Shown: positions 11,109 through 39,595 of the stretch, in pieces
How positions within the stretch are numbered: the first letter of the stretch is position 1
Layout of the letters: each line of letters begins with the position of its first letter
From: Portibacter marinus
GTDB taxonomy: Bacteria > Bacteroidota > Bacteroidia > Chitinophagales > Saprospiraceae
Length of the DNA stretch: 64,000 bases
Direction: 5' to 3'
Assembly: GCF_021533195.1 (NCBI RefSeq)
Contig: NZ_JAJNKB010000001.1
Location: forward strand, 248,001 to 312,000
Notes under the pieces: model-generated
Database searches by the model: none
Seen by the model: the letters and a program-made list of their open reading frames with translations, nothing else
Told to the model about the DNA's origin: nothing
Position numbers and translations under genes: made by a program

Positions 11109-11121
11109 TGCTTGTTAATTG

Positions 11122-12420: not shown

Positions 12421-12820
12421 AAAATTCTGCCACTATTTTCAACAGCATTTCTTGAGTCAAAGGTTTCGTCGAGAATTCTTTCACAATCCCAAACTCTTTA
12501 GCTTTGTCACGATCCTCCTGAGCTTCAGACGTGGTTAACATACAAACGATCATCTGTGCTTGCATTTTTTTCGGTAATTTCTCATATTCCTTCAAAAAAT
12601 CCCAGCCATTCATTCCAGGCATATTAATGTCTAAGAAAACGATTTCCGGGCAAGCGTATTCGCCATTAACTGCAGTTTTAAGATATTCTAGCGCTTCAGG
12701 AGCACTGTAAGTTACCACTACTTCCTCACAAACATCAGCCTTTGTAATTACTCTTTTGTGTAAAAAATTGTCAGCTTCAGAATCATCAATTAGCATAATC
12801 TTATTCAACTTTTTACTCAT
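12410..12820 (-). CDS. Single-domain response regulator (CheY-like)
   Basis: 136 residues forming a complete receiver domain: acidic pair D12/D13 (LIDDSEADNF), phospho-acceptor Asp64 (IVFLDINMPGMNG), conserved Thr in CMLTTSE and Lys in FSTKPL. The LIDDSEADNFLHKR start resembles receivers that serve bacteriophytochrome-like or hybrid kinases without an output domain. The gene is overlapped at both ends, by 4 bases with the membrane kinase upstream and 11 bases with the GAF kinase downstream, so the four products are made together. Confidence 0.9.
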   Translation of the reverse strand: MSKKLNKIMLIDDSEADNFLHKRVITKADVCEEVVVTYSAPEALEYLKTAVNGEYACPEIVFLDINMPGMNGWDFLKEYEKLPKKMQAQMIVCMLTTSEAQEDRDKAKEFGIVKEFSTKPLTQEMLLKIVAEFYES

Positions 12821-13866: not shown

Positions 13867-14697
13867 CTATAAAAGTTCGCTTAGTTCAATAAAATCCATA
13901 TCGGTAAAGTCTTTATTTTCCCCAGCCATGGCCCAAATAAACGAATAGCTAGATGTTCCACTTCCAGCGTGTATCGACCATGGAGGTGAAATAATAGCCT
14001 GATTGTTTCTGACCCACATGTGTCTCGTCTGATCCGGCTCTCCCATAAAATGCATTACACCTTGCTTTTCTGGCACATCGAAATAAAGATAGATTTCACT
14101 TCTTCTGTCGTGCGTATGAGGAGGCATGGTGTTCCAGACTGAACCTTTGTGCATGACAGTAAGTCCCATAACTACCTGACAGCTTCCTATACCTTCATTG
14201 TGTATATACTTGTAGATTGTTCTTTCATTGGCGGTTTCAGATGAGCCAAGTGTGACAGGTAGCGCATCTTCTTTTGTAAATAATTTTGTTGGATGTTGCG
14301 CATGAGCCAAAGCTGAAAAACAGTAAAATTTTGCTGGATTTTTAGCATCATCAGAAGAAAATTTTACGTTTTTAATACCTTTTCCTATGTATAAGCATGA
14401 CAATTTCTCCAATTTGTAGGAATCTTCACCTGTTGAAATCTTACCTGTTCCTCCTACATTAATGATTCCGATTTCCCTTCTTTCCAGGAAATATTCACTT
14501 TTTAAGTCTTCATAGTTTTTTAGGTCAATGCTTTCGCCAAGGGGTACAATACCTCCTACTACCATTCGATCATAATGACTATATACAAAGTGTGACTGAC
14601 CATCTTCGAATATTTCTTCAATAAGAAAGTTTTCTCTGAGCTCCTCAGTGTTCATGGTTTCCACCTCGTTCGGGTGAGATTCATAACGTTGTTCCAT
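13867..14697 (-). CDS. kduI: 5-dehydro-4-deoxy-D-glucuronate isomerase
   Basis: 276 residues, the usual KduI length. KduI converts 5-keto-4-deoxyuronate, formed when unsaturated glucuronyl or galacturonyl residues are released, into 3-deoxy-D-glycero-2,5-hexodiulosonate. The bicupin metal site is intact: His194 and His196 with Glu201 in PPHTHDRRSEIY, and His243 in WSIHAG; the GTGKI and MGLTVMHKGSVWNTMPPHTH segments are typical. It acts in the cytoplasm directly after the GH88 step encoded 14 kb upstream. It is the last gene of the utilisation locus on this strand, separated from dctM by the CTAAC-rich array, so it may be transcribed by read-through or from its own promoter. Confidence 0.95.
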   Translation of the reverse strand: MEQRYESHPNEVETMNTEELRENFLIEEIFEDGQSHFVYSHYDRMVVGGIVPLGESIDLKNYEDLKSEYFLERREIGIINVGGTGKISTGEDSYKLEKLSCLYIGKGIKNVKFSSDDAKNPAKFYCFSALAHAQHPTKLFTKEDALPVTLGSSETANERTIYKYIHNEGIGSCQVVMGLTVMHKGSVWNTMPPHTHDRRSEIYLYFDVPEKQGVMHFMGEPDQTRHMWVRNNQAIISPPWSIHAGSGTSSYSFIWAMAGENKDFTDMDFIELSELL

Positions 14698-14744
14698 CTC
14701 TATCTTATATTTTATTTAAATAATTTCGTTTTCAATATTCAGTT

Positions 14745-14772
14745 TTCGCTATTCGCTATTCGCTATTCGCTA
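14745..14772. repeat. Four perfect tandem copies of TTCGCTA
   Basis: A 7-bp unit repeated exactly four times (14745-14751, 14752-14758, 14759-14765, 14766-14772), 48 bases upstream of kduI on the - strand. It adjoins the longer CTAAC array but has a different period and sequence. Confidence 0.93.
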
Positions 14773-14784
14773 ATTTCTAATTTT

Positions 14785-15075
14785 ATCCCCTAAAGCCCTA
14801 ACACGCTAACTCCCTAACGCCCTGACGCCCTAACGCGCTAATATCCTAAAGCCCTAATACCCTCACGCCCCAACGCCCCTAACAAGCTAACTACACTATC
14901 TCCCTAACACGCTAACTCCCTAACGCCCCAACAAGCTAACTCCCTAAAGCCCTCTCCCCAACACCCTAACGCGCTAACTCCCTAACACGCTAACTCCCTA
15001 ACACGCTAACTCCCTAACGCGCTAATAACCTAAAGCCCTAACCCGCTAACTCTTCGACGCCCCAACTACCCCCCT
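14785..15075. repeat. Telomere-like degenerate array, mostly 9-nt period around CTAAC
   Basis: About 290 bases made almost only of variants such as CCCTAACGC, GCTAACTCC and CCCTAAAGC. The CTAAC core recurs mostly every 9 bases, with substitutions but few shifts. The - strand, which is the coding strand of the flanking genes, is GTTAGGG-rich. The array fills the gap between dctM and kduI and its edge reaches the last codons of dctM (stop at 15066-15068). No ORF, hairpin terminator or mobile element border is visible. Function unknown. Confidence 0.9.
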
Positions 15076-16376
15076 AATCCAAACACATTCACCAGCCACA
15101 AACTCAACTGTGGAATAAATGTTACTAAAATTAAAGATACAACCATCGCTGCTAAAAAAGGGAGCAATGGTCTGATCACCTCAGTTACAGATATTTTAGC
15201 CACACCCGCTCCCACAAATAGAATAGTACCCACAGGTGGTGTGCACAGACCAATACATAAATTCAGGACCATAATGATACCAAAATGAACCGGATCCATA
15301 CCCAATTCTACAACCACAGGTAAGAAGATCGGTGTAAAGATCAGTACCGCCGGAGTCATATCCATAAACGTTCCGAAAACCAAGAGCGTCAAATTGATCA
15401 ACAGAAAAATAGCGATCGGATTGCTCACCGTATCTACAAGAAAACCAGTCATTAATTGTGGAATACTTTCAAAGGAAAAAAGCCAGGACATGGCCATTGA
15501 AGTACAAATCAGAAACATGACTATCGCTGTTGTTTTAGCACTATTCAGCAATATCGAAGGTAAATCCTTTATACCAATAGTTCTATATGCAAATCCTAAT
15601 CCACCGGCATATATAATGGCGATGGCGGCGGCTTCAGTAGCAGTGAATATACCCATCACAATCCCACCAACTACCACAACCAACATCAACAAACTCAAAA
15701 AAGATTTTCTAAAATCTGTCCATAGTTGCGAAAGCTTGACCCGATCTCCACGCTTAATTTTTTTTCTATAGGCTATATAGGCCGCTACAACAATAAGGGA
15801 CAATCCAACCAAAAATCCAGGTATATAACCTGCAATAAACAAGGCAGCTACAGATGCCGTTCCACCACTTGCAAGCGCATAGACAATCAAGACATTGCTT
15901 GGTGGAATGAGTAAACCTGTGGTGGAAGATGTTATATTGACCGAAGCACTGAAAGGAACAGGATAGCCTTCGTCCTTCATTCGATCCGTCATCACACTAC
16001 CAATTGCTGAAGCTGCAGCAACTGCTGATCCCGAAATGGCACCAAACAACATAGAGGCAATGACATTGACATATGCCAAACCACCTGGCAAGCTTCCTAC
16101 CATAGATTTTGCCAGGTTGACCAACCGATTGGCTATACCTCCCCTATTCATAAGCTCGCCTGCTAAAATAAAGAAAGGAATGGCCAGCAATGCAAAACTG
16201 TCGATACCCGTTGTCATTCTTTGCGAAACCGTAGTAATTCCCGGAATCAAGGAAATATTAATAAGCAGGGTCACAAGCGTTGATATTCCGATGCTATAGG
16301 CCACAGGCACTCCGTAAGCCAACAATGCAAAAAAGCTAACGAACAATACCAGAATACTGATTAATTCAATCGACAT
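15066..16376 (-). CDS. dctM: TRAP transporter large permease
   Basis: 436 residues with about 12 hydrophobic segments, the size of DctM/SiaM large permeases. Typical segments are FALLAIPFFILAGELMNRGG near the N-terminus, the helical hairpin AISGSAVAAASAIGSVM and the late MVLNLCIGLCTPPVGTILF. It is the sodium-coupled channel unit of a tripartite transporter and works with the small permease (overlapping by 11 bases upstream) and the DctP-type binding protein. Position next to uxuA, an SDR and kduI implies that the cargo is a free uronate such as glucuronate or a 4-deoxy-5-keto derivative. Its 3' end runs into the CTAAC array. Confidence 0.95.
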   Translation of the reverse strand: MSIELISILVLFVSFFALLAYGVPVAYSIGISTLVTLLINISLIPGITTVSQRMTTGIDSFALLAIPFFILAGELMNRGGIANRLVNLAKSMVGSLPGGLAYVNVIASMLFGAISGSAVAAASAIGSVMTDRMKDEGYPVPFSASVNITSSTTGLLIPPSNVLIVYALASGGTASVAALFIAGYIPGFLVGLSLIVVAAYIAYRKKIKRGDRVKLSQLWTDFRKSFLSLLMLVVVVGGIVMGIFTATEAAAIAIIYAGGLGFAYRTIGIKDLPSILLNSAKTTAIVMFLICTSMAMSWLFSFESIPQLMTGFLVDTVSNPIAIFLLINLTLLVFGTFMDMTPAVLIFTPIFLPVVVELGMDPVHFGIIMVLNLCIGLCTPPVGTILFVGAGVAKISVTEVIRPLLPFLAAMVVSLILVTFIPQLSLWLVNVFGLGG

Positions 16377-16842
16377 AATCCGCTATTTTAGAAATGTTGT
16401 AGATTGAATAAAACATAATCAGCAAACCACTAATGGGTACAATACTGTAGATAAAGCCCAGAGAAATGCCCATCGCCGGAGATTGTTGTCCCAAAATAAA
16501 TGTGATGTAGACGAGATTACCCCCACCTATGACCATGACGATCAATGCAAACAACATCATCAGTATCTCGATCATTCTCATCCTCCTTTTCAAGGCCTCT
16601 CCTTCTAGTTTCTTTATGAGGTAGTCCATAGAAAGATGTGCTCTTTTTCCATTAAGGTAAGCCGCTCCTAAAATAGAAAGCCAGATTAAGGAAAATCTGG
16701 CAAACTCCTCTGTAAAAGAGGATGATTGACCGACCACATATCGACTAAAAACCTGCCAGACCACGTCGAGAACCATCAAGGCAAATATAAATATCAGTAT
16801 GCCTTCAATAATCCTATTGACCCCTTTGTAAGCTGTTTCCAT
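16366..16842 (-). CDS. dctQ: TRAP transporter small permease
   Basis: 158 residues with four membrane helices (about 15-37, 48-68, 85-110, 125-148) and the DctQ signatures FSRYVVGQSSSFTEEFARF and LNGKRAHLSMD. DctQ scaffolds the large permease in the inner membrane. The ATG at 16842 is preferred because it lies one base after the dctP stop; another ATG at 16869 would add nine residues and overlap dctP by 26 bases. It is translationally coupled on both sides within the TRAP operon. Confidence 0.92.
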   Translation of the reverse strand: METAYKGVNRIIEGILIFIFALMVLDVVWQVFSRYVVGQSSSFTEEFARFSLIWLSILGAAYLNGKRAHLSMDYLIKKLEGEALKRRMRMIEILMMLFALIVMVIGGGNLVYITFILGQQSPAMGISLGFIYSIVPISGLLIMFYSIYNISKIADYVD

Positions 16843-16843
16843 A

Positions 16844-17827
16844 TTATTTTTGTTGTTCAATTCTTTCAATAAGTGAGGTCATTTCAGGATCATTAGCAAA
16901 TCGCTCCTTCACGATGGATGCTTTTTCTGCAAACTTAGATTTATCTGGTCTGATGATTTCCACACCAGCATCTTCAAGTATGACCATACATTCATCCACA
17001 TTATCCTTCCAAAACTTTTTTTGAGCAACTACGGATGCATCTGCTGCTTGTTGTAACCACTCTTGCTGTTGAGGACTTAAAGTATTCCAAAACTTTGTTC
17101 CGATCACCAGTACATCAGGAAGCGAACTATGTTCATCCAAAGAATAGTATTTGCATATTTCATAATGCCTGGAGGTTACAAAAGATGGTGGATTGTTTTC
17201 GGCCCCATCTACAACCCCTTGTTGTAGAGCAGTGTATAATTCACCGTAAGACATTGGCGTAGCCGAACCACCTAATGCATTGACCATGCTCACGGACATC
17301 TGATCATTCATTACTCTAATCTTCATACCGTTCAAATCATCCGGCTCTACAATTGGCTTTTCCTTGGTGTAAAAGCTTCTGCTACCGGCGTCGTAAAAGC
17401 ATAGTCCTTGTAATAAAAATTCACTACCGGCCTGCAACAACTCTTTACCTACCGGACCTTCTAGTACATTGAACAGATGTTCGTGATCTCGAAAAATATA
17501 GGGGATGCCCAGGACCTTATATTTAGGAGCAAAATTAGACATGGCAGCCGCGCTGACTTTGGTCATACTTATGCTTCCTATTTGAAGTAATTCTAATACC
17601 TCCCTTTCTGAGCCCAATTGACCATCAGGAAAAATCTTTACACTCAGTTTCCCTCCAGATATTCTCTCGGCCTCCTCAGCGAAAACCTCCATTCCTTTAT
17701 GTACGGGATGGCTGATGGGCAAAGTATGTGCTAAGAGAACTCGCTTCGTTTCGGTCACTTCACTGCAAGAATACATCATCAAAGTGCTAAATAATAATAC
17801 TCCTAATAACCTAGTAATTAACGACAT
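16844..17827 (-). CDS. dctP: TRAP transporter solute-binding protein (DctP type), lipoprotein
   Basis: 327 residues with a lipobox-like MMYSC (Cys20), so the binding protein is probably anchored in the inner membrane rather than free, as in other Bacteroidota. DctP-family features: LLAHTLPISHPVHKGMEVFAEE, GSISMTKVSAAAMSNF, MKIRVMNDQMSVSMVNALGG with the arginine that pairs with the ligand carboxylate, and GVVDGAENN. The family binds organic acids; neighbours uxuA and kduI indicate a sugar acid. The gene follows uxuA by two bases. Confidence 0.94.
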   Translation of the reverse strand: MSLITRLLGVLLFSTLMMYSCSEVTETKRVLLAHTLPISHPVHKGMEVFAEEAERISGGKLSVKIFPDGQLGSEREVLELLQIGSISMTKVSAAAMSNFAPKYKVLGIPYIFRDHEHLFNVLEGPVGKELLQAGSEFLLQGLCFYDAGSRSFYTKEKPIVEPDDLNGMKIRVMNDQMSVSMVNALGGSATPMSYGELYTALQQGVVDGAENNPPSFVTSRHYEICKYYSLDEHSSLPDVLVIGTKFWNTLSPQQQEWLQQAADASVVAQKKFWKDNVDECMVILEDAGVEIIRPDKSKFAEKASIVKERFANDPEMTSLIERIEQQK

Positions 17828-17829
17828 AA

Positions 17830-18999
17830 CTATTCTTTCATTGACCTTAATATTCCCAATTCTAACCCCCTTAATTCAGCTAGTCCTCTTAATCTTCCAA
17901 TGGCGGAATAGCCAGGGTTCGTTTGCTTGTGCAAATCATCAAGCATCTTATGTCCATGATCAGGTCGCATAGGTATAGCCCAGTCTGTATGTTCAAGAAT
18001 CTTTCTCATTACCGCATACATGTCTACATCTCCATTCAAATGATCCGCCTCGTAAAAGTTACCATTTTTCTCCCTTTTGGTAGCACGCAAATGCAAAAAG
18101 TTAATCCGATTCGCAAATTTCTCCACCATTTTCGGAAGATCGTTATCAGGCCTCACTCCGTATGATCCGGTGCAAAAGCATAAGCCATTTGCAGGACTGT
18201 CAATATGCTGGAGTATGCTTTCTGCATCTGATTCAGTAGAAACGATTCTTGGCAGTCCCAAAAGTGGAAATGGTGGATCGTCAGGGTGTATGGCTAATTT
18301 TACATCATTCTTTTCAGCCACAGGCACTATTTCATCCAGAAATTGGAACAAGTTTGCCCTCAACTGATCCGCATCAATATTCTGGTAGGTGTCCAAAATC
18401 TCTTGAAATCTGACCAGCGAAAGGACGCCTTCAGTCGTGCCTCCAGGTAAGCCTGCAATAATGTTTTGGGTTAGTTTTTCCTTTTCAGGATGTGACATTT
18501 TACGAAAGTACTGCCAACCTGTATCGACTTCTTCCGCTGTATAATCTTTTTCGGCATTATCTCTATTGAGAATGCATATATCAAAGGCTGCAAATGCTGC
18601 TTTATCAAAGTAGAGCGCTGTAGATCCATCCTTCATGGGATATTCCAGATCAGTTCTTGACCAATCCAAAACCGGCATGAAGTTATAGGTGACGATTCTG
18701 ATATCGCTGGCTGCTAAATGCTCAATAGAAGTTTTGTAATTTTCAATGTATTTTTTATAGTTGCCTGATCTTCTTTTGATGTCTTCATGAACAGGAATAC
18801 TCTCCACAACAGACCACTTTAGCCCGTGATCTTCTATGATTTTTTTTCGCTGCTCAATGGCCTCCTTTGTCCATACTTCTCCACTAGGAATTTCATGAAG
18901 AGCATTTACTATACCTGAGGCTCCTGCTTGTCTGATATCTGCCAAAGAAACTGAATCCTTAGGACCATACCATCGCCATGTTTGTTCTAATCTACCCAT
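17830..18999 (-). CDS. uxuA: Mannonate dehydratase
   Basis: 389 residues, the normal UxuA length. The enzyme dehydrates D-mannonate to 2-keto-3-deoxy-D-gluconate in the cytoplasm. Seen in the sequence: [19 protein letters not shown] at the start, [54 protein letters not shown] and MRPDHGHKM near residue 345, all typical of the TIM-barrel family with Fe/Mn ligands. It is preceded by two bases after the SDR gene, giving the expected fructuronate reduction then mannonate dehydration order. It therefore serves D-glucuronate released from the polymer after isomerisation to fructuronate; that isomerase (UxaC) is not in the window. Confidence 0.96.
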
Positions 19000-19001
19000 A
19001 A

Positions 19002-19799
19002 TTATACACCACTAAATGCTGAAAAACCGCCGTCAATCGGCACAATAATCCCAGTAATAAATGAAGACCTGTCATCGCACAACCATAAGATGGTACTTAC
19101 CAATTCTTCAGGCTTTCCAAATCTTTTCATTGGCGTCTGACTGATGATTGTCTTACCCCGATCGGTCAAGCTTCCATCTTGATTCAAGAGTAAGTCGCGA
19201 TTCTGATCAGCCACCAGAAATCCGGGAGCGATGGCATTGACTCGAATCCCCTCCCCATATTTATTGAGGACCTCTACGGCCATAGATCTCGTAAAATTGT
19301 CGATCGCCGCTTTTGAAGCAGAATATCCTACGACTCTGGTTAATGGAAGAATTGCGGACATTGAAGAAATATTGATGATACAGCCTGATTTTTGTTTCAC
19401 CATCGGCTTTGCAAAGGCAATGGTTGGGATCACTGTACCCAGTAAATTGAGGTCATTGACCTTTTTGAATTCTTCAATCTTAAGATCAAAAAGTGTTTGA
19501 TCTGGCATGATGGTAGCACCGGGCATGTTTCCACCTGCACCATTAATTAAAACATCTACCTTACCCGCTTTAGAAATGACCTGAGTGACCGCATGAGCCA
19601 TAGCTTTTTCGTCTAAAACATCTCCAATGATATAATCTATATTGGTCCCTTCTTCAGCTAGTTCGGCCACAACATCTCTACACTTGCGTTCATTCCTCGC
19701 TATGATAAAAACTTTTGCACCACGCTCTCCCAAGCCCTGTGCAATAGCCTTACCTATGGTTCCGTTTCCTCCCGTAATACAAACTACCTTGTCTTTCAT
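19002..19799 (-). CDS. SDR oxidoreductase, probable D-mannonate oxidoreductase (fructuronate reductase)
   Basis: 265 residues, classical short-chain dehydrogenase: cofactor motif TGGNGTIG (9-16), NGAGG (86-90), catalytic Ser146, Tyr159 and Lys163 (YSASK). The insert [17 protein letters not shown] after NGAGG and the late tail [24 protein letters not shown] match SDR-type D-mannonate oxidoreductases such as Bacillus YjmF/UxuB, not the long-chain UxuB of enterobacteria. The neighbour uxuA supports reduction of D-fructuronate to D-mannonate. The alternative, KduD (reduction of 3-deoxy-hexodiulosonate), cannot be excluded, since kduI is in the same locus without another candidate reductase. Contiguous with the lyase gene upstream. 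Confidence 0.85.
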
Positions 19800-22700
19800 C
19801 TATTTCACAATCAGTTTTTTGTAAATGTTTTCTTGGGCATTTAAAGATATACTTAATACATAAACTCCCGGATCAAATTTCTGATTAATCAAAACCTGGC
19901 CCTTTGACTTAGTATAGAATACCTTTTGACCTGCCATCGTGAAGATAGAAATTTCGGCTACCATGAACTCAGGTGACTTAATTTGAAAACTTCCATTCGT
20001 CGGATTGGGATAGATGACAACTTTGTCAGCAGCAATAATGCCGTCAACGCTGCTCGTACCCATGAATTTAAGAATGTAGTTCGCTTGAGTGAAGCCGTCT
20101 TGCGCTGTTACAGTAATGGTAACCGTCGTCAAGTTTTCAACTGAGGTGGTATCAAATCGAACATTTGCCAAATCAGATTGAGTTGTGACTTCGATCGCCG
20201 GTAATGCACTGTTTTCTATGGTTAAATCATAGATAAGCGAGTCCGGGTCGAAATCCGGGATTACTTCTCCATCGAGTGAAATAGAGTTTAAACTTGCTAC
20301 ACTGCTGAGGAACAAGTCTTCCGGTAATGTTGGTCCTTCCCCCGGGCCTTTGTCCTGATTAGGCAAAATGGCTATCCAATCCACGATCGATCCACACTCA
20401 GAACCACCTAACTTTCCAAAATCAAAGTAATGATTCGAATCATCGTCTCCTGAAACTGCTATGGCAAATGGCTCTGGGTTTTCATCTAGGTACATGGTTG
20501 TCTCATTGCCCTTCATCACAACTCTTACCAAATGAAATTCTTCATCAAAATCGAAATTGTAGGACTCTTCTACGAGTGGCTCAGATCTTTCAAATTTGAT
20601 GGTATTGTGATTGATCTTAATCTTCTCTCTCCATCCAAAACTTCTGACTTCAAAGAAGGTTATATTCTTAACGTCCGGATTGATTCCTTTAATTCTTGCC
20701 ACTACTGTAAAAGCAGTATCCTGTTCTTCCAAACGATATCTCCATCTGAACTTCTGATCATCTGACAGATCTGCAAACATATAAAAGTTGTTTCCGGAGC
20801 CGTTCGGATCCACTAAGATGGTATCCAATTCCGGATTTACAGGAATGTCCTTAGGCTCGTAAAACGATGTCTCTAGATCCAATCTGGCATTGGCTCTATA
20901 AACATCCCACCCATTATCCTTTTCACTTTTGAGCATGGTGATCAAATAGGTGTGAGTGTTGAAATTATCCTGAGCAACTACCTTAATAGTAGCAGTAAAA
21001 AACTCATCTTCCTCACTAATCTCAATGTTGGTCGTCGCTTTGCGAAAACTGGTCTGAAGATTTATTGTCGGCAATTCACTGTTATTCAATGTTACAGTGT
21101 ATTCAAATGCATTTGATGAAAAGCCCTCAATTGACAAACCATTGATCTGTAATTCACTTAAAGTGGCATCATTACTTAAAATAAAATCCGATGGAAGTTC
21201 GGGACCTTCTTTAGGCCCATAAGCTTGATTTGGCAAGATAGTCATCCAATCCACAAAGCTTCCAGTTGGCGTCCCACCTGACTTTCCAAATTCAAAATTG
21301 CTTCCACCATCTGATTCTTCGGAATATCCTACTGCAAATGGAACAGGATTTTCATCCACGTAAACGGTCATTACCTGATCCTCCATAGTCACTCGCACAA
21401 TATGAAAATCTGCATCAAAATCGAAAGGAATGTCAGATTCAATGACTGGAGTCGATTTCTCCAGTTTAAAATTGTCATGATTTATTCTCAATTTATCTCT
21501 CACTCCTCCTAATCTGATTTCAAAGTATCCCACGTTTTTAGCTTCCTCAAATCCTTTTATTCTGGCTACTACAGTGAAGGCAGTATCAGAATCTTCAAAT
21601 TCGTACCTCCATCTGAATTTCTCATCACTGTTTTCAAAATATTGATATATGTTATTGGTCGGAACAAGTGGGTCAACCATCACTTCATCGATTTCGGGTT
21701 CTTCAGGAATGTCTCTTGGTTCCATGAAATTAGTTTCCAGATCCAATCGATCCTCACCTCTGTAAACCAGCCATGGACCATCTGAATTTTCGCCTGCTGT
21801 AGAGAAGGACCAAATGGGGCCTAAAGTGACACCATTAACATTCTTCTGACCAATTTGCCAGAAATAAGTTGAGTCTGACTCAAGCATTAGCGAGTAAGTG
21901 TTTTCTGCTTGGGTCGAAAGTAAAATAAGTTCATTCTGTAATCCAAAAAAGATCAGACTACTATCTGTATTTTCTCCTAAATCCCATCTTAGAGTGACTG
22001 TGTTACTGATATCTTCAGTACCGTCTGCCGGGAAAGGATTTGTAGGTTCATCAGGCAAAGCATCTGAGGGATCAGTGGTTACATTCACCGTATTGCTGAA
22101 GTCGGATTCATTACCTGCAGCATCTACTGCAGAAGCATACACAGTGTAATCAGTCCCACCTGTTAATCCAGTAATTTCAGTGTGGAGCTCTGAAGTTTTC
22201 AAAAACTCTATTCCATTCAGATAAATCAAATATTCAGTTACACCAAAATTATCTGAAGACTCTTCCCAGGACAGCCCGATCGTATTGATGGTCACCTTAT
22301 CTGCCATCAAATTGGAAGGTGCCGATGGTGCCTCTTCATCAACAAAGACCATGTCATCCGCAGGACAAAGTGTTTCACTTGTTTCGGATATACAAAAATC
22401 ACTAAAACGCACTATTTCATCCTTTAATCCTTCAACTTTTCTTCTGTAAACTCCCCATTTTGGTCTGGAATACTCACCTCCATCTCTCCATAAATCAATG
22501 TCATTGTTACTATAGTTGACCAGTTCGACACCGGATTTTAAATCTTTTAAAGTGATGAGTAGATTACCGTTTTCCGAATGCTTTTGGTAGATATAAGCCT
22601 CGATCCAGTTTCCTAAAAAGGGTTCAATGTCCGTGCTCACTACCTTACCGAGATCATTGCCGGTGTCTCCACCATTGTGGATCACTTCTAACTTGGAAGT

Positions 22701-28752: not shown

Positions 28753-28758
28753 ATATTT

Positions 28759-29919: not shown

Positions 29920-29929
29920 GAAAGTATTT

Positions 29930-29966
29930 AAAAAAGGGCCACTCCCAGAATTAGTGGAAGTAGCCC
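29930..29966 (-). terminator. Intrinsic terminator inside the utilisation locus
   Basis: On the - strand, GGGCTACTTCC and GGGAGTGGCCC form an 11-bp stem (two G-T pairs) with a 9-nt loop, followed by six T (29935-29930). It lies 15 bases after the stop of the beta-helix gene and 10 bases before the GH88 start, so it should separate the receptor/beta-helix transcript from the enzyme/transport genes or reduce their level. Confidence 0.85.
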
Positions 29967-29981
29967 ATGAATATGATTGAA

Positions 29982-31562: not shown

Positions 31563-31594
31563 ATTGCTAACATTTAATTTTTAAATAGTTTAAT

Positions 31595-34519
31595 TTATCT
31601 AATTATATATTCGACGCCTATCGTGGCGGTAGAACCATATCTTTCTCTATTCGTAATGAATTCGGGAGACCTGAAAAAGTTGATGTCTTTCTGGTCACTG
31701 AGATTATTAAGATTTAGGAAGGCATTGAAATTTCTATTGAATCTTTGCTTGAAAACCATGTCGAATCTCCAAAATTGATTGCTAAATCTATCTTTATCTG
31801 CATTAGAGCTATATCCAGTTAATTTAGATCCTTGATAAGCAGCAGATGTTCTAAAGGAAAATCCACCAATATCATACCCCAATGAAGTATTAAATATGTG
31901 CCTGGCTTGACCTATTAGATCTACCTCGCGCTGAAATGGAATCACTAGGATTTGTGTTTGAAAAAAAGGAAAAACACCTGTTCTTACGGTTTCTTCTCTA
32001 AAAGAATTGATCGTCGTCTGCGAAAATAAACGAGTATAGTTTGCACTTAGGACCAAACCATCAAAAGGCTTAGGAAGAAAGTTAAGATTAGTCTGAATGT
32101 CCAATTCAAAACCCTGAACATTTGATACAGGAGAATTAACAAACGTCGTTAATTCAGCATTCCCGAATCCCTGCTCAGGAAATCCATAAGCCATTACGAG
32201 AGAATCGCTATTCAAGCCTATTATGAATGGATAGAAAGCGTCCTTAATTTGCTTATAAAATACACCCGCAGAAATCAATCCCCATTTACCTGAATAAGCC
32301 GTTGCAAACAAATCATAATTTGTGGATACGGATGGTTTTAGATCTGGATTTCCCTGCTCTATTCTTAAATCTCCCCCCCTATTTACGATAGTAGCTGGAA
32401 CCAAATAATCGTAATTTGGTCTTGCCAAGGTAGTAGAATAAGAAGCTCTTAAATCAAACCAGGAGAATGGTTTATATTTTAAATGAAGGTGGGGCATCAA
32501 CACTCCATACTGTGCCTCTGCACTTCTTTCCTGCACATTCCCACTTTCTCCAAAGTCGCCATCAAGGTCAGCATATAAGCCATTATAACTGTTGTCTGAG
32601 TATTCATATCTGATACCAGGAATCAAAGTAATTTTATCTTTGATCTTTGCTTTGAGCATAGCATATGCAGCATATACTTGTTCCTCTAAATCATAATTAT
32701 TGACGTCCTGATATCTGTAATCTCTTAAGTCATCTGCAAATAATTCACTAAATCTGATCATCCTGTCTGGATCAAATTCATTGCTTAACTCTACAACCTC
32801 TCCTTTTTCATTGGTGAAGGTCTGAGGTGTATCATTCTGAAAATTACTCATGGCGTAATAGAACTTTCCGGTAGGGTCAACACCAGTAGCTCCTTGTCCG
32901 TTTTCATCAAAAGGTAAAAATCTATTATTATTAAGAAGATAATAGAGCCTTGCCCTCTCTTCATCATAATTCCTGTCTTTCATTGTATTGATAGCCTTCA
33001 CTCCAGCTTTGAAATTGATAGAGTTTGCATCTCTCTTGAAAACATTGAAGTCGAAATTGACATATCCTGTCGTAATTTCCTCTGAATTGCCGCTTGTTGA
33101 GGATGCAATTTGCAGTAAGAAGCTAGAAGTAGGATCTATATCCAGAAAATTATAGTAATTGAATGGATTTCTTCTGGAATTTTCGCTGTTTACTTCGGGA
33201 TCGAACGGTGACCTGTTGTTATTAAAAGTCTGGGTATAATCAATAGGCGTCATTCCAGATACTCTGGAAACAGAGGTACCCCAATCCACATTGACTATAT
33301 TTGAGCGGTGTCTGGCCGTAATTGATCCTGAAAATAAATCAATAGAACTTTCTGTAACGTTAGGGTTATATCTGACCTGAAATCCACCAACATTGTATTG
33401 TTCTATATGATCAAAGCGATCACGTGATGTTCTGGAATATAGGCCAAGTACATTAAAATCAGAATTGTTGCCGATCTTAAAATCAAATCCCAATGTCCCA
33501 TTGGTACGATATCTTTGTTCTTTTCTTTTCACATACGTTAAACTACTTCCCTGTTGTTCGAAAATATTTAACGCCGTATCGATAACGTTCTTTGTATTGT
33601 CAGTCCATCCAACTCTAATGGTTTCACCACCTCGATTAAATCTCTCCGTATTCGCAGTAGCGATGACACCCAATTTGTTATCGAAAAATCGCTGAGAAAA
33701 AGACAGTGTCGCCTTATAGTCCGTGAATGTATTTTCCAAAAAGTTAGCACCACCTAAAACTTTCATTGCTATTTTTCTATCCTCTGGTGCACGCATAATA
33801 TTCAGATTTACTGAACCTCCTATGGCATCCCCATCCATATCAGGAGTAGGAGATTTGAATAATTCTACTCCTGAGAGTAACTCGGGAGAAATTAGGGATA
33901 AATCTACAGATCGGTCAGCACCTGATGTGGAAGGTAATCTCACCCCATTAATTGAAATGGCTGTAAACTTAGGATCTAAGCCTCTCACAACTATCTTAGA
34001 ACCTTCACCACCGCTTCTATTGATGGCGACCCCAGGAAGTCGAGATATAGCTTCAGCTGCATTGACATCAGGAAGCTCTTTAATCTTTTCGACAGAAATA
34101 AAATTACCGATGGCATCGGAATTTAGCTGTTGGTTAATCGCTTTAACTTGGCCCAGAGCTTGTGCAGTAATTACAACCTCAGTACCCAAAATTGACTCGG
34201 GTTTGAGTTCAACAGATATGGAAGTATTTTCACCTTCCACTACAGTCACTGGAATTTCTTCTGTGGCATAAGAAACGTATGATATAACTATAACTTGTTC
34301 CCCTACTGGAACATTGGTCAGAACAAACTTTCCATCATAATCTGTATTTGTGCCCGTAGAAGTTGATCCTTTTAAATAAACATTGGCCCCTGGAAGCCCG
34401 AAACCGCCATCGCCATCATTAACTTCACCTACAACGCTACCAGTTTGAGCCGCACCAATTACAGAAATCAGTACCCCCACCATCAAAAGACAGAGATTTT
34501 TACATACAGTATTCATCAT
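31595..34519 (-). CDS. TonB-dependent receptor of the polyuronate locus, SusD-independent type
   Basis: 974 residues: signal peptide, carboxypeptidase-like domain at about 28-110 (GSVVGEVNDGDGGFGLPGAN), plug at about 130-250 (IGNFISVEKIKELPDVNAAE, AISRLPGVAINRSGGEGSKI, VRGLDPKFTAISINGVRLP, MDGDAIGGSVNL) and a 22-stranded barrel. The TSGADRSVDLSLISPELLSG and DAIGGSVN motifs belong to the large receptor group used for oligosaccharides in both Bacteroidota and Proteobacteria without SusD. It should import oligouronides across the outer membrane. It heads its transcript, 130 bases downstream of the hybrid regulator gene, and is followed by the beta-helix gene and an intrinsic terminator. Confidence 0.93.
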   Translation of the reverse strand: MMNTVCKNLCLLMVGVLISVIGAAQTGSVVGEVNDGDGGFGLPGANVYLKGSTSTGTNTDYDGKFVLTNVPVGEQVIVISYVSYATEEIPVTVVEGENTSISVELKPESILGTEVVITAQALGQVKAINQQLNSDAIGNFISVEKIKELPDVNAAEAISRLPGVAINRSGGEGSKIVVRGLDPKFTAISINGVRLPSTSGADRSVDLSLISPELLSGVELFKSPTPDMDGDAIGGSVNLNIMRAPEDRKIAMKVLGGANFLENTFTDYKATLSFSQRFFDNKLGVIATANTERFNRGGETIRVGWTDNTKNVIDTALNIFEQQGSSLTYVKRKEQRYRTNGTLGFDFKIGNNSDFNVLGLYSRTSRDRFDHIEQYNVGGFQVRYNPNVTESSIDLFSGSITARHRSNIVNVDWGTSVSRVSGMTPIDYTQTFNNNRSPFDPEVNSENSRRNPFNYYNFLDIDPTSSFLLQIASSTSGNSEEITTGYVNFDFNVFKRDANSINFKAGVKAINTMKDRNYDEERARLYYLLNNNRFLPFDENGQGATGVDPTGKFYYAMSNFQNDTPQTFTNEKGEVVELSNEFDPDRMIRFSELFADDLRDYRYQDVNNYDLEEQVYAAYAMLKAKIKDKITLIPGIRYEYSDNSYNGLYADLDGDFGESGNVQERSAEAQYGVLMPHLHLKYKPFSWFDLRASYSTTLARPNYDYLVPATIVNRGGDLRIEQGNPDLKPSVSTNYDLFATAYSGKWGLISAGVFYKQIKDAFYPFIIGLNSDSLVMAYGFPEQGFGNAELTTFVNSPVSNVQGFELDIQTNLNFLPKPFDGLVLSANYTRLFSQTTINSFREETVRTGVFPFFQTQILVIPFQREVDLIGQARHIFNTSLGYDIGGFSFRTSAAYQGSKLTGYSSNADKDRFSNQFWRFDMVFKQRFNRNFNAFLNLNNLSDQKDINFFRSPEFITNRERYGSTATIGVEYIIR

Positions 34520-34649
34520 AAAACTTTATTTGCAGTCTTATAGTAGGTTAAAGAATTAAAATAAGTCCTTAAACCTATCTTGCTAACATTATACCTTAAA
34601 GCTAGCAGAATACTAACACATAAAAGTCCAGATGTAGGAGGAAAAAAGT

Positions 34650-37600
34650 CTAAACCCTAAAAGCTACGGTATATTCAGAAGGATTTTTACCAAATTCTTT
34701 CTGAAAAACTTTACTAAAGTATTTCGGATCTTTGTAGCCAACCATAAATGCTACTTCGTGCACATTCAGCTTTCCGGTCTCCAATAATTGAATGGCTCTC
34801 TTCATTCTGAAGGATTTCAAAAAGTTCTTAGGCGTCATATCAGTCATGGCCTTAATTTTGGTAAAAAGCAAAGCTCTACTAACTGCTAACTCATGTGCAA
34901 ACTGCTCAATTTTGAATTCTGGATTGTCAATATTTGTTTCTACCAGCTTGAGTAAATTTTGTAAAAATTGTTCGTCGGCAGAAGTAATCTCGAGATCCTT
35001 TGGATTGAACGCTTTATCAGCGAGTGCTTCCTTGATCATCTTTTGTTGTGCCAACAAATTTTCTACTTTGTACCTCAGCTCATCAGGATGAAACGGCTTC
35101 GAAATAAAATCATTGGCCCCGGATTTCAATCCCTCCAGTTTATCATCCAAAAGCGTTCTAGCTGTCAACAAAATCAGTGGAATGTGAGAAGTACTGAGGT
35201 CGCTCCTAATTTCATTGCAAAATGTGATACCATCCATCTCAGGCATCATCACATCACTAATAATGAGATCAGGTTGGTATTCGCGACTTTTCATCAATCC
35301 CTCTTTACCGTCAGATGCAATTACAATTTTGTACTTACCATCAAAAATAGAGGTAATATAATCCAGGACTTCTCTATTGTCATCAACTACCAGTAACTTA
35401 AGTGTACTTTCAGAAATAATTGACCGCTCTTCTGTGGCTTCGGAAGGCAGGACAATCTCCGTGGGTTTAGCTATAGCCTCAAATTGTCTCACTTCTACAA
35501 TTTCCTTAGAGCTAAAATGTGACTTTCCTTTTTGCAGATTCACAATAAACCGAGCACCATTCCCTTCCTTACTTTCCACATCCAGGCGGCCCTTGTGAAG
35601 TTCTACCAATTCTTTACTCAAAGCCAATCCGATTCCTGTTCCTTTGATCAAATTGCTAGTCTCCCCTGGATTCTTCTCATAGAACCGCTGAAATATTTGG
35701 TTGTGCAAATGCTTGGGAATGCCTTCTCCCGAGTCTTGAACGACCACCATAACCTTGGTTTGCTCTTCCAATATTGATAGGATAATTTCTCCTTGATGAG
35801 GAGTGAATTTAAAAGCATTTGATAACAAGTTAAATAACACCTTTTCAATCTTCTCTTCGTCTATCCATACTTTCAAATCGTCATTTGGTAAAATCAATTT
35901 GTAATTGATATCCATTAAATTTGCGTGATCCTCAAATAATCCATAGATTTTCGAAAGATATGGTTTCAGTTGTACCTCAGTCACTTTCATTGGCTCGTGA
36001 CCTGCTTCCATTTTTCTGAAGGTCATCAATTGGTTGACAAGATTAAGCATTCGCTGAGAGTTACTGTTGATTTTCAGTAATTTGTCTTTGAGTGCTTCAT
36101 AATCATAAGACTTAAGATTCTTAATCAAATCCTCTATAGGACCTATGATTAAAGTCAATGGTGTCCGGAATTCATGAGCCACATTCGTAAAGAAATTCAG
36201 TTTCAACCTGTGCAGTTCCTCCTTCTGCAGCTTTTCCTTCAACTCAAATTGGTAAGAATCTCTTAACCGAAGATATCTCAAAATGGCATAAATTCCTGCT
36301 ATGCCTATTAAAATATAAAGTAAATAAGCCCACCATGTTCTCCATGGCGGTGGTAATACCTCTATTTCCAATTTTTTAACTTCATCGTTCCACTTTCCTG
36401 CACTGTTTCCACCTTTCAGCAAGAATGTATATGTGCCATGTCTTTGAATAGTATAGGTCGCTGAAGGTTGACCTATAGAAGTAATCCACTCTTGATCCAG
36501 CCCTTCTAATTTATAGGAATAATAATTATTGTCAGGATTAGAGTAATCAAGTGCGGCAAAATTTATTGTAAAATTTGCCTGGTTATATTTGAAGAGTACT
36601 TTTTCAATTTCATTGATATTATGCTCTAATTTTAATGGTCTGTTATTTTGCGTAATGCCAGTAAAAACAACAGGCGGTTCGAAATCATTAATTATAATTT
36701 GCTGTGGATCAAACCTGGTATAACCATTGACACCGCCGAAAATTATATCGCCATTCGCAGTTCTATAATAGGCATTAAAGTTAAACTCAGAATTCGTAAG
36801 TCCATTTGCATTATTGAAATTGATAAATTGTTCATCATCCTTGCAAAATCTGGAAATACCGTTATTTGTACTCAACCACAAATAGCCTTTCTCATCCTCT
36901 ATAATACCAAAAACCGTATTGCCCGCCAAACCGTCAAACGTAGAATAACTTTTTGACTCCAATGTCTTAGGATTCCATTTGATTAAGCCATTACTAATTG
37001 TACCCAGCCATAGATTTCCTTTGTTATCTTCCTGGATGCTGTAAATTTTGATATCCTCAAGGTAACGTTTGAAAACAAAAGGTAACCCATTGCCATCTAC
37101 TTCTATTTGATTCAATCCTCTGGCTGTTCCCAACCATATTTCATCACTACTTGATCTGAACAATACCCGAATGAAGTCAGAACTCACTGATAGTGAATCA
37201 AGATCATTATGTTGATAGATCACCACCTCACCCGTAGCTTTATCATAGATATTCAAACCTCCTGCATAGGTGGCTATCCAGATCTTAGCGTCCTGAATCA
37301 ATAAATCATAAACATTATCATTAGACAAGCCTTCTTCCAGACCTAGATTTTCAAAAGTCTGTGTTTTGATATTAAATTTATCCAGACCCGAACTGAAATG
37401 CCCTATCCATAAATCATCTCCATCTAATAATAGTTGTTTTACATTTGAACCAGCGATCGTATTAGAATGGTCGTCCGGTACAAAGTGTTTATAGGTTTGA
37501 AGGTTAACGTCATAGAAATTTAGTCCTCCACCTTCTGTTCCAATCCATAGGTCACCATTCTGATCCTCAGCAAATGAACTGACTACGGGAGCACTCAAAC

Positions 37601-38684
37601 CTTGATGATACGGAGAATAGGTGTAGTTCTTAAATTGATTATACCCTTCATCAAGATGATTGACGCCACCGTAGTAGGTTCCAATCCACATACTACCTTT
37701 TCGATCTGCATAGAGCGCCTTAATAGAGTTATCAGTCAATGCATTCTTCAAGGAGCGATCACTCTTATATAAGGTCATTTCTTCCGTCTTCGTATCCAGT
37801 AAATTAAGTCCATCGAATGTGCCTATCCACAAGCGATTTGGCGCATCAAAGCAAAGAGATCGAATAATATTACTACCCAATGTATTTGATACTTCAGAAT
37901 TGCTCTTTAAATGCTTTAGTATTTTGCCTTCTGAATCTAATTGAATTATTCCGAATTGATCTGTTCCTAGCCATATGGTTCCATCCACATTTCTGACCAT
38001 TGCTGTAATAATTGATTGGTTCAATGATTCCCCTAAATCAATCTTTGCAAAGCCCTTGGTGTTCAAATCAAATGAATAAAGTCCATTCCTGGTTCCTATC
38101 CAAAATGTAGATGGTCCCATGTCCAAAATATGTGTAATTGTGTTGGTGTTGGAAGCATCAGTATTTCTATAAAGTTTAAATTGGCTAGTGACCGGATTGT
38201 ATTCATTTAAGCCTTTAGAAGTACCTACCCAAACCTGATTTTCACCTTTTCTGTAAATGCAGGAAATATGATTGGATGCCAAACCGGACAAATTATCAAC
38301 TTCGTGACGGAAGCTGGTAAAGGTATAGGTGTCAAGATCAAGATAACTCAACCCTTCCAATGTGCCAATCCATAGTAAATTTTCAAAAGGATCAGTGTAA
38401 AGGCTCCGAACATCATTTCCCACAGGTCCATTATCGGAATCTCCTTTACGGAAAATCGTGAAATTATACCCATCATATTTGTTCAAACCATCCCGGGTAC
38501 CGAACCATAAGAAGCCATCTGTATCTTCGGTGATGGCGAAAACTGAGGACTGTGAAAGCCCGTCCTGGCGGCCAAGCTTTTTGAAATATGTCGCATCTTG
38601 TGCAACAAGCACTACACTCCAGCAGGTCCATGCTAAAAGCAGTAAACCTCTTACCAGTGATAAGTTAGTTTTACAGTTATTCAT
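34650..38684 (-). CDS. Hybrid two-component system regulator (sensor, kinase, receiver and AraC in one chain)
   Basis: 1344 residues. Signal peptide, then about 14 two-component-regulator propeller repeats (GLSQSSVFAITEDTDGFLWF and FGTRDGLNKYDG onward, to about 670), a Y_Y_Y domain (about 690-765), one membrane helix (about 775-800, WWAYLLYILIGIAGIYAIL), HisKA with His837 (NVAHEFRTPL), HATPase_c (about 945-1060), a receiver with Asp1144 (LIISDVMMPEMDG) and an AraC-type HTH (about 1235-1344). This is the one-protein sensor/transcription factor that controls glycan loci in Bacteroidota by binding an oligosaccharide in the periplasm. It should activate the adjoining receptor and enzyme genes. 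A TATATTTG -7 element precedes its start. Confidence 0.96.
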   Translation of the reverse strand: MNNCKTNLSLVRGLLLLAWTCWSVVLVAQDATYFKKLGRQDGLSQSSVFAITEDTDGFLWFGTRDGLNKYDGYNFTIFRKGDSDNGPVGNDVRSLYTDPFENLLWIGTLEGLSYLDLDTYTFTSFRHEVDNLSGLASNHISCIYRKGENQVWVGTSKGLNEYNPVTSQFKLYRNTDASNTNTITHILDMGPSTFWIGTRNGLYSFDLNTKGFAKIDLGESLNQSIITAMVRNVDGTIWLGTDQFGIIQLDSEGKILKHLKSNSEVSNTLGSNIIRSLCFDAPNRLWIGTFDGLNLLDTKTEEMTLYKSDRSLKNALTDNSIKALYADRKGSMWIGTYYGGVNHLDEGYNQFKNYTYSPYHQGLSAPVVSSFAEDQNGDLWIGTEGGGLNFYDVNLQTYKHFVPDDHSNTIAGSNVKQLLLDGDDLWIGHFSSGLDKFNIKTQTFENLGLEEGLSNDNVYDLLIQDAKIWIATYAGGLNIYDKATGEVVIYQHNDLDSLSVSSDFIRVLFRSSSDEIWLGTARGLNQIEVDGNGLPFVFKRYLEDIKIYSIQEDNKGNLWLGTISNGLIKWNPKTLESKSYSTFDGLAGNTVFGIIEDEKGYLWLSTNNGISRFCKDDEQFINFNNANGLTNSEFNFNAYYRTANGDIIFGGVNGYTRFDPQQIIINDFEPPVVFTGITQNNRPLKLEHNINEIEKVLFKYNQANFTINFAALDYSNPDNNYYSYKLEGLDQEWITSIGQPSATYTIQRHGTYTFLLKGGNSAGKWNDEVKKLEIEVLPPPWRTWWAYLLYILIGIAGIYAILRYLRLRDSYQFELKEKLQKEELHRLKLNFFTNVAHEFRTPLTLIIGPIEDLIKNLKSYDYEALKDKLLKINSNSQRMLNLVNQLMTFRKMEAGHEPMKVTEVQLKPYLSKIYGLFEDHANLMDINYKLILPNDDLKVWIDEEKIEKVLFNLLSNAFKFTPHQGEIILSILEEQTKVMVVVQDSGEGIPKHLHNQIFQRFYEKNPGETSNLIKGTGIGLALSKELVELHKGRLDVESKEGNGARFIVNLQKGKSHFSSKEIVEVRQFEAIAKPTEIVLPSEATEERSIISESTLKLLVVDDNREVLDYITSIFDGKYKIVIASDGKEGLMKSREYQPDLIISDVMMPEMDGITFCNEIRSDLSTSHIPLILLTARTLLDDKLEGLKSGANDFISKPFHPDELRYKVENLLAQQKMIKEALADKAFNPKDLEITSADEQFLQNLLKLVETNIDNPEFKIEQFAHELAVSRALLFTKIKAMTDMTPKNFLKSFRMKRAIQLLETGKLNVHEVAFMVGYKDPKYFSKVFQKEFGKNPSEYTVAFRV

Positions 38685-38695
38685 ATTCGTGTAAA

Positions 38696-38703
38696 CAAAT
38701 ATA
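38696..38703 (-). promoter_or_regulatory. Candidate -7 promoter element of the hybrid regulator gene
   Basis: TATATTTG on the - strand matches TAnnTTTG exactly and ends 11 bases upstream of the ATG. A TTTG lies upstream at a spacing of 23 bases, longer than usual, so the -33 element is uncertain. Confidence 0.5.
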
Positions 38704-38797
38704 ATCTTTTTTTAATAGCGTGATTTCAAACAAAACAGTACAGTACAGCTGCTCCTCATACTTCTATTATCTTTTTTCTTTCTAATAAATAATTCAT

Positions 38798-39595
38798 ATG
38801 TTTAAAGGACTAACGAATATAGGCATCATACTGCTACTTTGTCTTGCCATTTCCTGCGAGGAAGAACTTGTAGATCATGAAATGGAGGAAGAGGAGATCG
38901 AAATTCCTGAAGCCAATGTCTTGTTGGCCAATGGCGGATGTCCTGACACTTTAATTCCTTTCTATTTAGAGAAAGATGGACAATTAATGATTGAAATGGA
39001 GAGTGCTGATTATGATGCCACTTCATGGACACTAGACAGTGTTTTATCTGGAGCGTCGAACGATAAATATCTAGTATGGAAAGGGAGTAATCACTATTCG
39101 GATCCTGGTAAAGGTTTGTTAAACTTTCGAATAAGAATTGAAAATCCTGGCACCTATCGCTTTCTATGGAGATCTAGAATTACTCAAGGCAATTCTAACA
39201 CGGATTTTAACGATTCATGGTTGCGCATTCCTAATGCCGATCATTTTTATGGTAAAAGAGATAGTGACGGTCATATTGTATATCCTAAAGGTACCAATCA
39301 AGACCCGATAGTGGATAGCGAGGGCCAGGCGCACACGATGCCGGAGGGTGCAGGAAAAGATGGTTGGTTTAAAATTTATATGAACAGGCTTGGCTCATGG
39401 GCTTGGATATCGAGAACAAGTGACAACGACCCACACCAAATCTTTGCTATTTTTGATGAAGCAGGAGATTATACCATACAGATTGCAGGCAGATCGACAA
39501 ATCATGGAATTGATAAACTGACGATGTTTTTGACTCACATACCACAGAATACAGCTACTGCTACTAATGTGTTAAGTGATGCACTATGCGAATAA
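38798..39595 (+). CDS. Lipoprotein with a carbohydrate-binding-like jelly roll
   Basis: 265 residues, lipobox AISC (Cys20) followed by a very acidic stretch (EEELVDHEMEEEEIEI) of the kind seen in surface-exported Bacteroidota lipoproteins. From about residue 60 the chain reads like a CBM6/CBM35-type beta-sandwich (LMIEMESADYD, KYLVWKGSNHYSDPGKG, LLNFRIRIENPGTYRFLWRS, SWLRIPNADHFYG, AGDYTIQIAGRSTNHGIDKL). No catalytic motif is seen. It is divergent from the hybrid regulator gene at the edge of the polyuronate locus, so a surface glycan-binding protein is the best guess. Three residues LNF, RFL and TIQ mark alternating strands; the ligand is unknown. Confidence 0.72.
   Translation: MFKGLTNIGIILLLCLAISCEEELVDHEMEEEEIEIPEANVLLANGGCPDTLIPFYLEKDGQLMIEMESADYDATSWTLDSVLSGASNDKYLVWKGSNHYSDPGKGLLNFRIRIENPGTYRFLWRSRITQGNSNTDFNDSWLRIPNADHFYGKRDSDGHIVYPKGTNQDPIVDSEGQAHTMPEGAGKDGWFKIYMNRLGSWAWISRTSDNDPHQIFAIFDEAGDYTIQIAGRSTNHGIDKLTMFLTHIPQNTATATNVLSDALCE

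Follow-up and report, generated by a model that had tools for sequence, protein, structure and literature searches.

A probable glucuronate-polymer locus of Portibacter marinus with a TonB-dependent receptor and a beta-helix protein that recur as a pair across Bacteroidota

The 64,000-nt stretch of the Portibacter marinus genome analyzed here (the window, within which positions are given unless another contig or locus is named) contains at 13867–39595 a gene cluster that probably breaks down a glucuronic-acid polymer. Read along the minus strand, it begins with a hybrid regulator and a TonB-dependent receptor, followed by a 526-aa protein, a GH88-type protein, a GH2–DUF4861 fusion, two PL38-type lyases and a 1121-aa lyase candidate with a type IX secretion system (T9SS) tail, and continues past this lyase with a short-chain dehydrogenase/reductase (SDR) gene, uxuA, dctP, dctQ, dctM and kduI. 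An earlier note on this DNA had listed this gene set, and the open reading frames (ORFs) and their families agree with it, but its list left out the 526-aa gene (29982–31562, minus), which starts 32 bp behind the receptor gene (31595–34519, minus). The receptor is of the TonB-Xanth-Caul type (TIGR01782, 383.9 bits, cut-off 310), carries a CarbopepD_reg_2 domain (PF13715, PF07715 and PF00593), and has no SusC model among its seven listed families, in agreement with its earlier description as a non-SusC receptor. Its neighbor ends in a T9SS type A C-terminal sorting domain (PF18962, 45.8 bits, cut-off 27), and the structure model of the 526-aa protein (pLDDT 80.7) shows a right-handed beta-helix with the sorting domain after it.

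The receptor and the 526-aa protein are a recurrent pair, shared by many distantly related Bacteroidota. Among named genomes, a scan for the 526-aa family (A2) gave 30 loci, one of which (L099) matched only through the T9SS tail and was dropped; among the remaining 29, the gene lies directly behind the receptor in all 25 that could be assessed, while the other four, L074, L082, L089 and L097, lie at a contig edge or have too short a stretch upstream. All of 10 more remote relatives, from other genomes of the family, likewise stand behind such a receptor. A second profile (A5), which leaves out the T9SS tail and covers the helix part alone, had matches in 24 of the 150 genomes searched from the family and in 37 of the 247 searched from the phylum. 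For the phylum sample we fetched 28 loci, one best match each, out of 35 matching genomes (besides G000 and G080), and in all 27 that could be assessed a TIGR01782-type receptor immediately precedes the helix gene on the same strand (L159 lacks upstream sequence); scanning the C-terminal halves of these receptors returned TIGR01782 in 24 of 24, with no SusC model listed. In the 30 loci of the family sample (L105–L134), the upstream receptor was seen as an ORF in 27 and by tblastn in L108 and L127, and L130 lies at the edge of its contig. Several genomes and contigs are common to the named loci and the family sample, so that not all of these counts are independent.

The association also holds in the reverse direction. 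Searching the receptor against the 150 family genomes gave 38 stretches, and 35 of the 36 assessable ones have a helix partner, which was accepted at up to 3.5 kb on the same strand since some of the receptor matches cover the N-terminal half only; L218 and L220 are cut by contig ends and were left out of the count. The P. marinus genome itself encodes two receptors of the subclass and two beta-helix proteins, each receptor standing with one helix protein, and G080 holds at least four pairs. The numbers of paralogs are lower bounds throughout, as up to 5 candidates per genome were scored in the receptor search, 12 in the A5 family search and 7 in the A5 phylum search. The second P. marinus pair (L163 6778–12079, contig C63) is followed by a sulfatase, and its receptor ORF has an N-terminal extension and is preceded by what appear by eye to be sigma factor and anti-sigma factor-like genes.

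The receptor is thus paired with a protein other than SusD, and SusD itself is absent from the locus, as the earlier note had said. A PF07980 search found 13 SusD matches in the genome and none inside the window, and a hidden Markov model built from 11 of these 13 matches, several being partial ORFs, found no match in the window either. When the same profile was run against 76 related stretches (737 ORFs of at least 200 aa), no SusD was tied to any receptor/helix pair; the only two SusDs are in L072, upstream and two genes from the pair’s receptor, and in L057, which holds no pair. None of 10 neighbor genes of pairs that were scanned matched SusD. The genome does encode a SusD on the same contig about 23 kb away (C11:237609–239333), behind a SusC-like ORF recognized by eye, which could suggest an ordinary SusCD-type polysaccharide utilization locus (PUL) that has lost its SusD or keeps it nearby, but that SusD has its own neighbors, the window receptor is of another subfamily than SusC, and no SusD accompanies the pair in the 76 stretches, which makes this explanation scarcely credible. 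We therefore rejected a lost or overlooked nearby SusD, given the distance of about 23 kb to the nearest one and the different receptor subfamily. The term ‘SusD-less’ is correct for this layout and at the same time incomplete, since the receptor has a dedicated partner gene, which is the more unusual feature. Sulfatases, which the earlier note had also reported missing, gave 29 matches in the genome, 28 of them over the cut-off, and none in the locus.

Beyond being adjacent, the two genes diverge together. Pairwise distances of the receptor and the beta-helix protein correlate across loci with r = 0.96, compared with −0.04 and −0.01 for each of them against the GH2 of the same locus (n = 13 loci). 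Using GH88 as the control gives 0.94 for the pair vs 0.39 and 0.41 (n = 13), and using the regulator gives 0.92 vs 0.43 and 0.45 (n = 19). The partial correlation of the pair was reached in 0 of 2000 permutations with all three controls, and two control combinations in 324 and 851 of 2000, in a permutation scheme that ignores phylogeny. Part of the correlation stems from a single deep split, which in both genes of the pair separates the window, L070 and L071 from the rest; with these three removed, the pair still stands at 0.89 vs 0.29 and 0.19 with GH2 as control (n = 10). From these distances, the pair appears to have diverged, or to have been exchanged, as a unit within a partly conserved locus. 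Several points count against giving the pair this special status: leaving out the deepest split shrinks the contrast with GH88 (0.87 vs 0.68 and 0.66, n = 11) and with the regulator (0.80 vs 0.69 and 0.66, n = 16), one receptor of the subclass (L219) is truly without a partner, and a secreted lyase travelling with its receptor would also yield both adjacency and co-divergence.

This last possibility can be weighed through the fold of the beta-helix protein. Its best VIA match is residues 426–747 of the PL6 lyase 7dmk (Z 26.8, root-mean-square deviation 2.8, 299 aligned residues), and the first six VIA rows are all C-terminal domains of two-domain PL6 lyases (the other five at Z 21.5–22.4), followed by rows at Z 20.2 and 19.1 and by shorter PL6 enzymes at Z 15–16. 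Foldseek gave no match at E ≤ 0.001 for this model, and its top rows are mainly Ig-like domains. The helix of the 526-aa protein resembles the C-terminal domain of alginate lyases such as BcAlyPL6 (7dmk), AlyGC (5gkd) and Patl3640 (7o7t), at Z 21.5–26.8 and 13–16% identity and with matches spanning residues 426–756, whereas the PL6 N-terminal domain has no counterpart in it and a T9SS tail is added. We take the PL6 N-terminal domain to carry the active site, presumably with residue 241 of AlyGC as a catalytic residue; the R241A change of the listed AlyGC mutant entry falls outside the matched region, because the match covers 439–727.

A distant PL6-like surface lyase or epimerase that makes oligomers for the receptor would suit a fold that is common to PL6, PL1, PL9 and the C5-epimerases. 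Numerous charged residues, including E156, K157, R159, R218, R244 and H245, do not vary within the close clade, and across 17 distant members two Arg columns and one Glu column of the helix are nearly invariant, which also speaks against a pure binding role. On the other hand, the best fold matches are the C-terminal PL6 domains, and the 9 helix columns that are fully invariant among the 17 relatives lack Lys, Arg, His, Asp and Glu altogether. In addition, the genes near pairs elsewhere include GH9, GH5-type, GH88 and CBM96 proteins, with uxuA or kduI homologs also occurring, and uronate elimination would make no sense beside GH9 and GH5-type genes. We consider the enzymatic role unlikely on this evidence. 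As the partner stays constant while the enzyme set changes, binding and delivery explain it better than catalysis, and we infer that the 526-aa protein is a surface glycan-binding partner in the role of SusD.

The wider helix family is varied. A CBM35 domain passes the cut-off in L146 and L153, 2 of the 10 relatives scanned, and stays under it in L150 and L157, and tandem helix proteins of about 1095 aa occur in L078 (8228–11509), with a fasciclin domain between the copies, and in L082 (458–3748). DUF4957 matches 5 of 17 relatives and DUF5123 3 of 17 (E up to 1; best 1.1e-6 and 0.027, respectively), and neither matches the window protein. One pair, in another genome of the phylum (L175 2463–14502), lies beside a kduI homolog, an SDR, a UxaC-like ORF recognized by eye and, below the cut-off, a weak match to pectate lyase. 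A T9SS protein of about 700 aa is found near the pair in L073 (15375–17492) and L085 (17059–19158), with ORFs of similar size in L077, L078, L087 and L094; the two that were tested have no Pfam match besides the tail, and this could be a lyase or binding protein not described before.

The enzymes encoded with the pair point to uronates. The 1121-aa protein (19800–23165, minus), a candidate secreted endo-lyase, consists of an N-terminal jelly-roll domain of lyase type, fn3, a duplicated accessory region and a T9SS type A tail (PF18962, 37.3 bits, cut-off 27), with a weak PF14099 match below the cut-off (26.0 vs 29.9). In its structure model (pLDDT 78), the N-terminal domain is predicted to have the PL20/PL13-type lyase fold, in line with the heparinase I/glucuronan lyase fold named in the earlier note: VIA gives tied scores of Z 18.9 to 2zzj and 18.1 to heparinase I at 10–12% identity, which we take to be a PL20 glucuronan lyase and a PL13 enzyme, respectively. 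VIA ranks 2zzj first and Foldseek ranks heparinase I first, once rows with generic lectin-like beta sandwiches are disregarded, so the tied matches and differing orders do not decide between PL20 and PL13. The internal duplication covers about 283 residues at 47% identity; orthologs in L074, L075, L079, L084 and L096 are 833–875 aa long, about one unit shorter, and those of L071 and L070 have 1010 and only 361 aa.

Next to it, PL38a (23156–24319, minus) and PL38b (24316–25464, minus) both belong to PF05426 (250.6 and 258.9 bits) and match 3nfv (168 and 185.5 bits) and, over about 320 residues, 8bdq (134.5 and 157 bits), which is termed PL38 in the relevant passage of PMC12088678, in agreement with their earlier description as PL38-like. 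The fusion protein (25465–28752, minus) joins a candidate GH2 beta-glucuronidase to a C-terminal DUF4861 domain (147.7 bits). Its GH2 part is closest to 6d1p (636 bits) and 6d7j (625 bits) over 740–751 residues, the latter named Beta-Glucuronidase and both presumably gut bacterial enzymes, from which it differs by the added DUF4861, and it keeps the N-x-K motif (NQK aligned, residue 590), which we take to be the carboxylate motif; it scores below the NCBIfam equivalog NF050095 (363, cut-off 950). GH2 and DUF4861 are separate adjoining ORFs in L070, L075, L076, L079, L084 and G062 (L042), and GH2 occurs without DUF4861 in several other loci; a literature search on DUF4861, covering few subscription journals, gave nothing. 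The GH88-type unsaturated glucuronyl hydrolase (28759–29919, minus; PF07470, 30.5 bits, cut-off 26.6) has full-length similarity to 3wiw (294 bits), its closest solved structure and presumably a Pedobacter heparinus enzyme for heparin disaccharides. Early cysteines noted by eye in this protein, in both PL38-type lyases and in DctP suggest lipoproteins.

The remaining genes cover uronate catabolism and transport. These are an SDR (19002–19799, minus) with a probable UxuB role as fructuronate/mannonate oxidoreductase (NF006132, PRK08277, ‘D-mannonate oxidoreductase’, 361 bits, cut-off 281), the mannonate dehydratase uxuA (17830–18999, minus; TIGR00695, 542.8 bits, cut-off 200), and kduI, 5-dehydro-4-deoxy-D-glucuronate isomerase (13867–14697, minus; NF002091, 431.9 bits, cut-off 250). 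Between uxuA and kduI lie the three genes of the tripartite ATP-independent periplasmic (TRAP) transporter listed in the earlier note, all over their cut-offs: dctP, a uronate-type solute-binding protein (16844–17827, minus; PF03480), dctQ, the small permease (16366–16869, minus; PF04290, 97.6 bits, cut-off 28.3), and dctM, the large permease (15066–16376, minus; TIGR00786, 452.7 bits, cut-off 268). By sequence, the solved TRAP binding proteins closest to DctP are 4n8y and 4x8r, which the passages of PMC11668362 describe as bound to galacturonate and glucuronate. UxaC is encoded about 32 kb from the locus on the same contig, and inside the orthologous locus in L043, and KDPG (2-keto-3-deoxy-6-phosphogluconate) aldolase matches are present in the genome.

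This set of enzymes and transporter would fit a polymer made almost wholly of beta-linked glucuronate, for which beta-1,4-glucuronan, as yet unproven, is the best single guess and the simplest fit. The earlier proposal of beta-1,4-glucuronan or a glucuronate-rich unsulfated glycan is thus likely, although the substrate is not fixed by the sequence, because PL38 is polyspecific and the fold of the secreted lyase is tied between PL20 and PL13. The characterized PL38 enzymes treated in passages of PMC13027841 (CUL-I, TpPL38A, BoPL38, Aly38A and RiPL38), a family whose structures PL38a and PL38b match, comprise two alginate lyases, two glucuronan lyases and one hyaluronan/chondroitin lyase, so that activity on alginate, hyaluronan and chondroitin sulfate is on record there. 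A further gap in the proposed pathway is KduD, for which the genome has no match over the cut-off (best 309 bits vs 369).

We regard it as a real possibility, if a less than even one, that the substrate is instead another uronate polymer, such as alginate, an unsulfated polymer resembling glycosaminoglycans, or a glucuronate-rich exopolysaccharide with neutral sugars. Besides the range of PL38, two further points would suit such a system, namely that heparinase I ties for the best fold match to the secreted lyase and that the closest solved GH88 relative is presumably a heparin-disaccharide enzyme. A pure glucuronate polymer, however, accounts for the beta-glucuronidase, the GH88 protein and both the UxuA and the KduI route, no sulfatase is present, and none of the enzyme families for hexosamine, xylose, rhamnose or mannose has a match over its cut-off among the genes of the locus, with DUF4861, a 265-aa protein and the C-terminal part of the 1121-aa lyase left unexplained.

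Much of this gene set recurs in other genera, so its co-occurrence is not due to chance, and the locus is of a Saprospiraceae/Lewinella type. Loci with the 526-aa family were found in Lewinella, Neolewinella, Phaeodactylibacter and many Saprospiraceae metagenome-assembled genomes among the named genomes. The fullest (L070, L075, L079, L084 and L096) run from regulator, receptor, 526-aa protein, GH88, GH2 and DUF4861 through one or two PL38 lyases to the T9SS lyase, with SDR and uxuA next where the stretch extends that far, and L096 lacks GH88 and DUF4861; the other loci retain only part of this order. Two genomes keep nearly the full set with TRAP and kduI included, although G062 has no regulator adjoining the receptor and the stretch from G095 contains a single PL38-type lyase. 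Altogether, dctP is in or near the orthologous locus in six other genomes: in addition to G062 and G095, it lies close behind the locus in those of L070, L075, L076 and L096 (contig identity established through matching coordinates). The genomes of L085 and L094, in which no lyases stand directly beside the pair, have no close DctP. The cultured strains Lewinella cohaerens and Neolewinella antarctica offer a way to test the use of glucuronan.

The presence of dctPQM within the locus, and of dctP at six orthologous ones, might suggest that TRAP in place of a major facilitator superfamily (MFS) permease is the novel part, especially as passages of PMC12472053 name MFS or ToaABC for the inner membrane in alginate PULs. 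The earlier note had seen it as a departure from the Bacteroidota layout. This claim did not survive, and we find it very improbable, given that glucuronate/galacturonate TRAP binding proteins are known (PMC11668362) and that a TRAP transporter beside uronate isomerase and mannonate dehydratase is described for a PUL of marine NS5 flavobacteria in the pertinent section of PMC9122927. TRAP in a Bacteroidota uronate locus was accordingly rejected as a novelty. The NS5_D PUL differs in its content, as many members have GH95 and fructokinase, and the passage names no lyases of the window’s families.

Considering the above, we favor with some confidence the reading of a partly conserved catabolic locus for an unsulfated polymer rich in glucuronic acid, most likely beta-1,4-glucuronan, with import by a SusD-independent pair of receptor and beta-helix protein. 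In such a scheme, the hybrid sensor would detect oligosaccharides and switch on the locus, and the T9SS-exported jelly-roll lyase would cleave the polymer outside the cell. The surface-held beta-helix protein would then bind oligo-uronides and, in contact with the receptor, pass them on to it, as SusD or a surface glycan-binding lipoprotein does elsewhere. The PL38 lyases, GH88 and the GH2 beta-glucuronidase would next yield 4-deoxy-5-keto-uronate and glucuronate, which would be imported as monomers by the TRAP system. KduI (together with KduD, whose gene was not identified), UxaC, the SDR and UxuA would convert these to KDG (2-keto-3-deoxygluconate), with KDPG aldolase following.

We class the system as a TonB-dependent glycan uptake locus with another receptor class and another partner than SusCD. 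It resembles SusC/SusD PULs in having a TonB-dependent receptor with an adjoining partner gene, a hybrid regulator, and lyases and hydrolases in one locus, and differs from them by the TIGR01782 receptor, the T9SS-tailed beta-helix in place of SusD, and TRAP at the inner membrane. Adjacency of a receptor and a beta-helix gene is not in itself unseen, which tempers the novelty, because a Bacteroides thetaiotaomicron table in PMC10434189 lists a receptor beside DUF4957 (BT1025-26) and a pectinesterase, DUF5123 and receptor genes together (BT4109-14), the accompanying passages making no comment on a pair. These loci are like the window pair in placing beta-helix families near a receptor, but the window protein matches neither DUF4957 nor DUF5123 and has a T9SS tail. 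A literature search that reached few subscription journals, and is therefore weak evidence of absence, found no paper describing the receptor/beta-helix pair.

More broadly, and at a little below an even chance in our estimate, Bacteroidota could have a second, SusD-independent outer-membrane glycan importer, formed by a TonB-Xanth-Caul-type receptor with a dedicated, surface-exported beta-helix protein as its glycan-binding lid or tether, spread through the phylum, possible in several copies per genome, and serving uronate polymers, cellulose-like and other glycans in a way comparable to SusCD. PUL prediction in Bacteroidota relies on the SusC/SusD pair, and SusCD-based PUL finders would miss such an importer if it exists. 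Should it prove to be an import class parallel to SusCD, many glycan loci will so far have lacked a recognized importer, and the new architecture would be testable by structure and genetics.

The hybrid two-component regulator at the head of the locus (34650–38684, minus) combines Reg_prop, Y_Y_Y, HisKA, HATPase, receiver and AraC domains by Pfam. A scan of the kduI–dctM region for promoters and terminators found sites no more numerous than in shuffled sequences. Divergently from the regulator, at 38798, starts the gene of a 265-aa putative lipoprotein (38798–39595, plus) without a Pfam or NCBIfam match, a possible member of the locus; among 29 related loci, several of them too short to show it, a homolog (39% identity) stands beside the regulator in L096 only. 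At the opposite end, beyond kduI, four ORFs on the same strand (10575–13827), histidine kinases and a receiver protein among them, appear to form a signalling cluster of their own.

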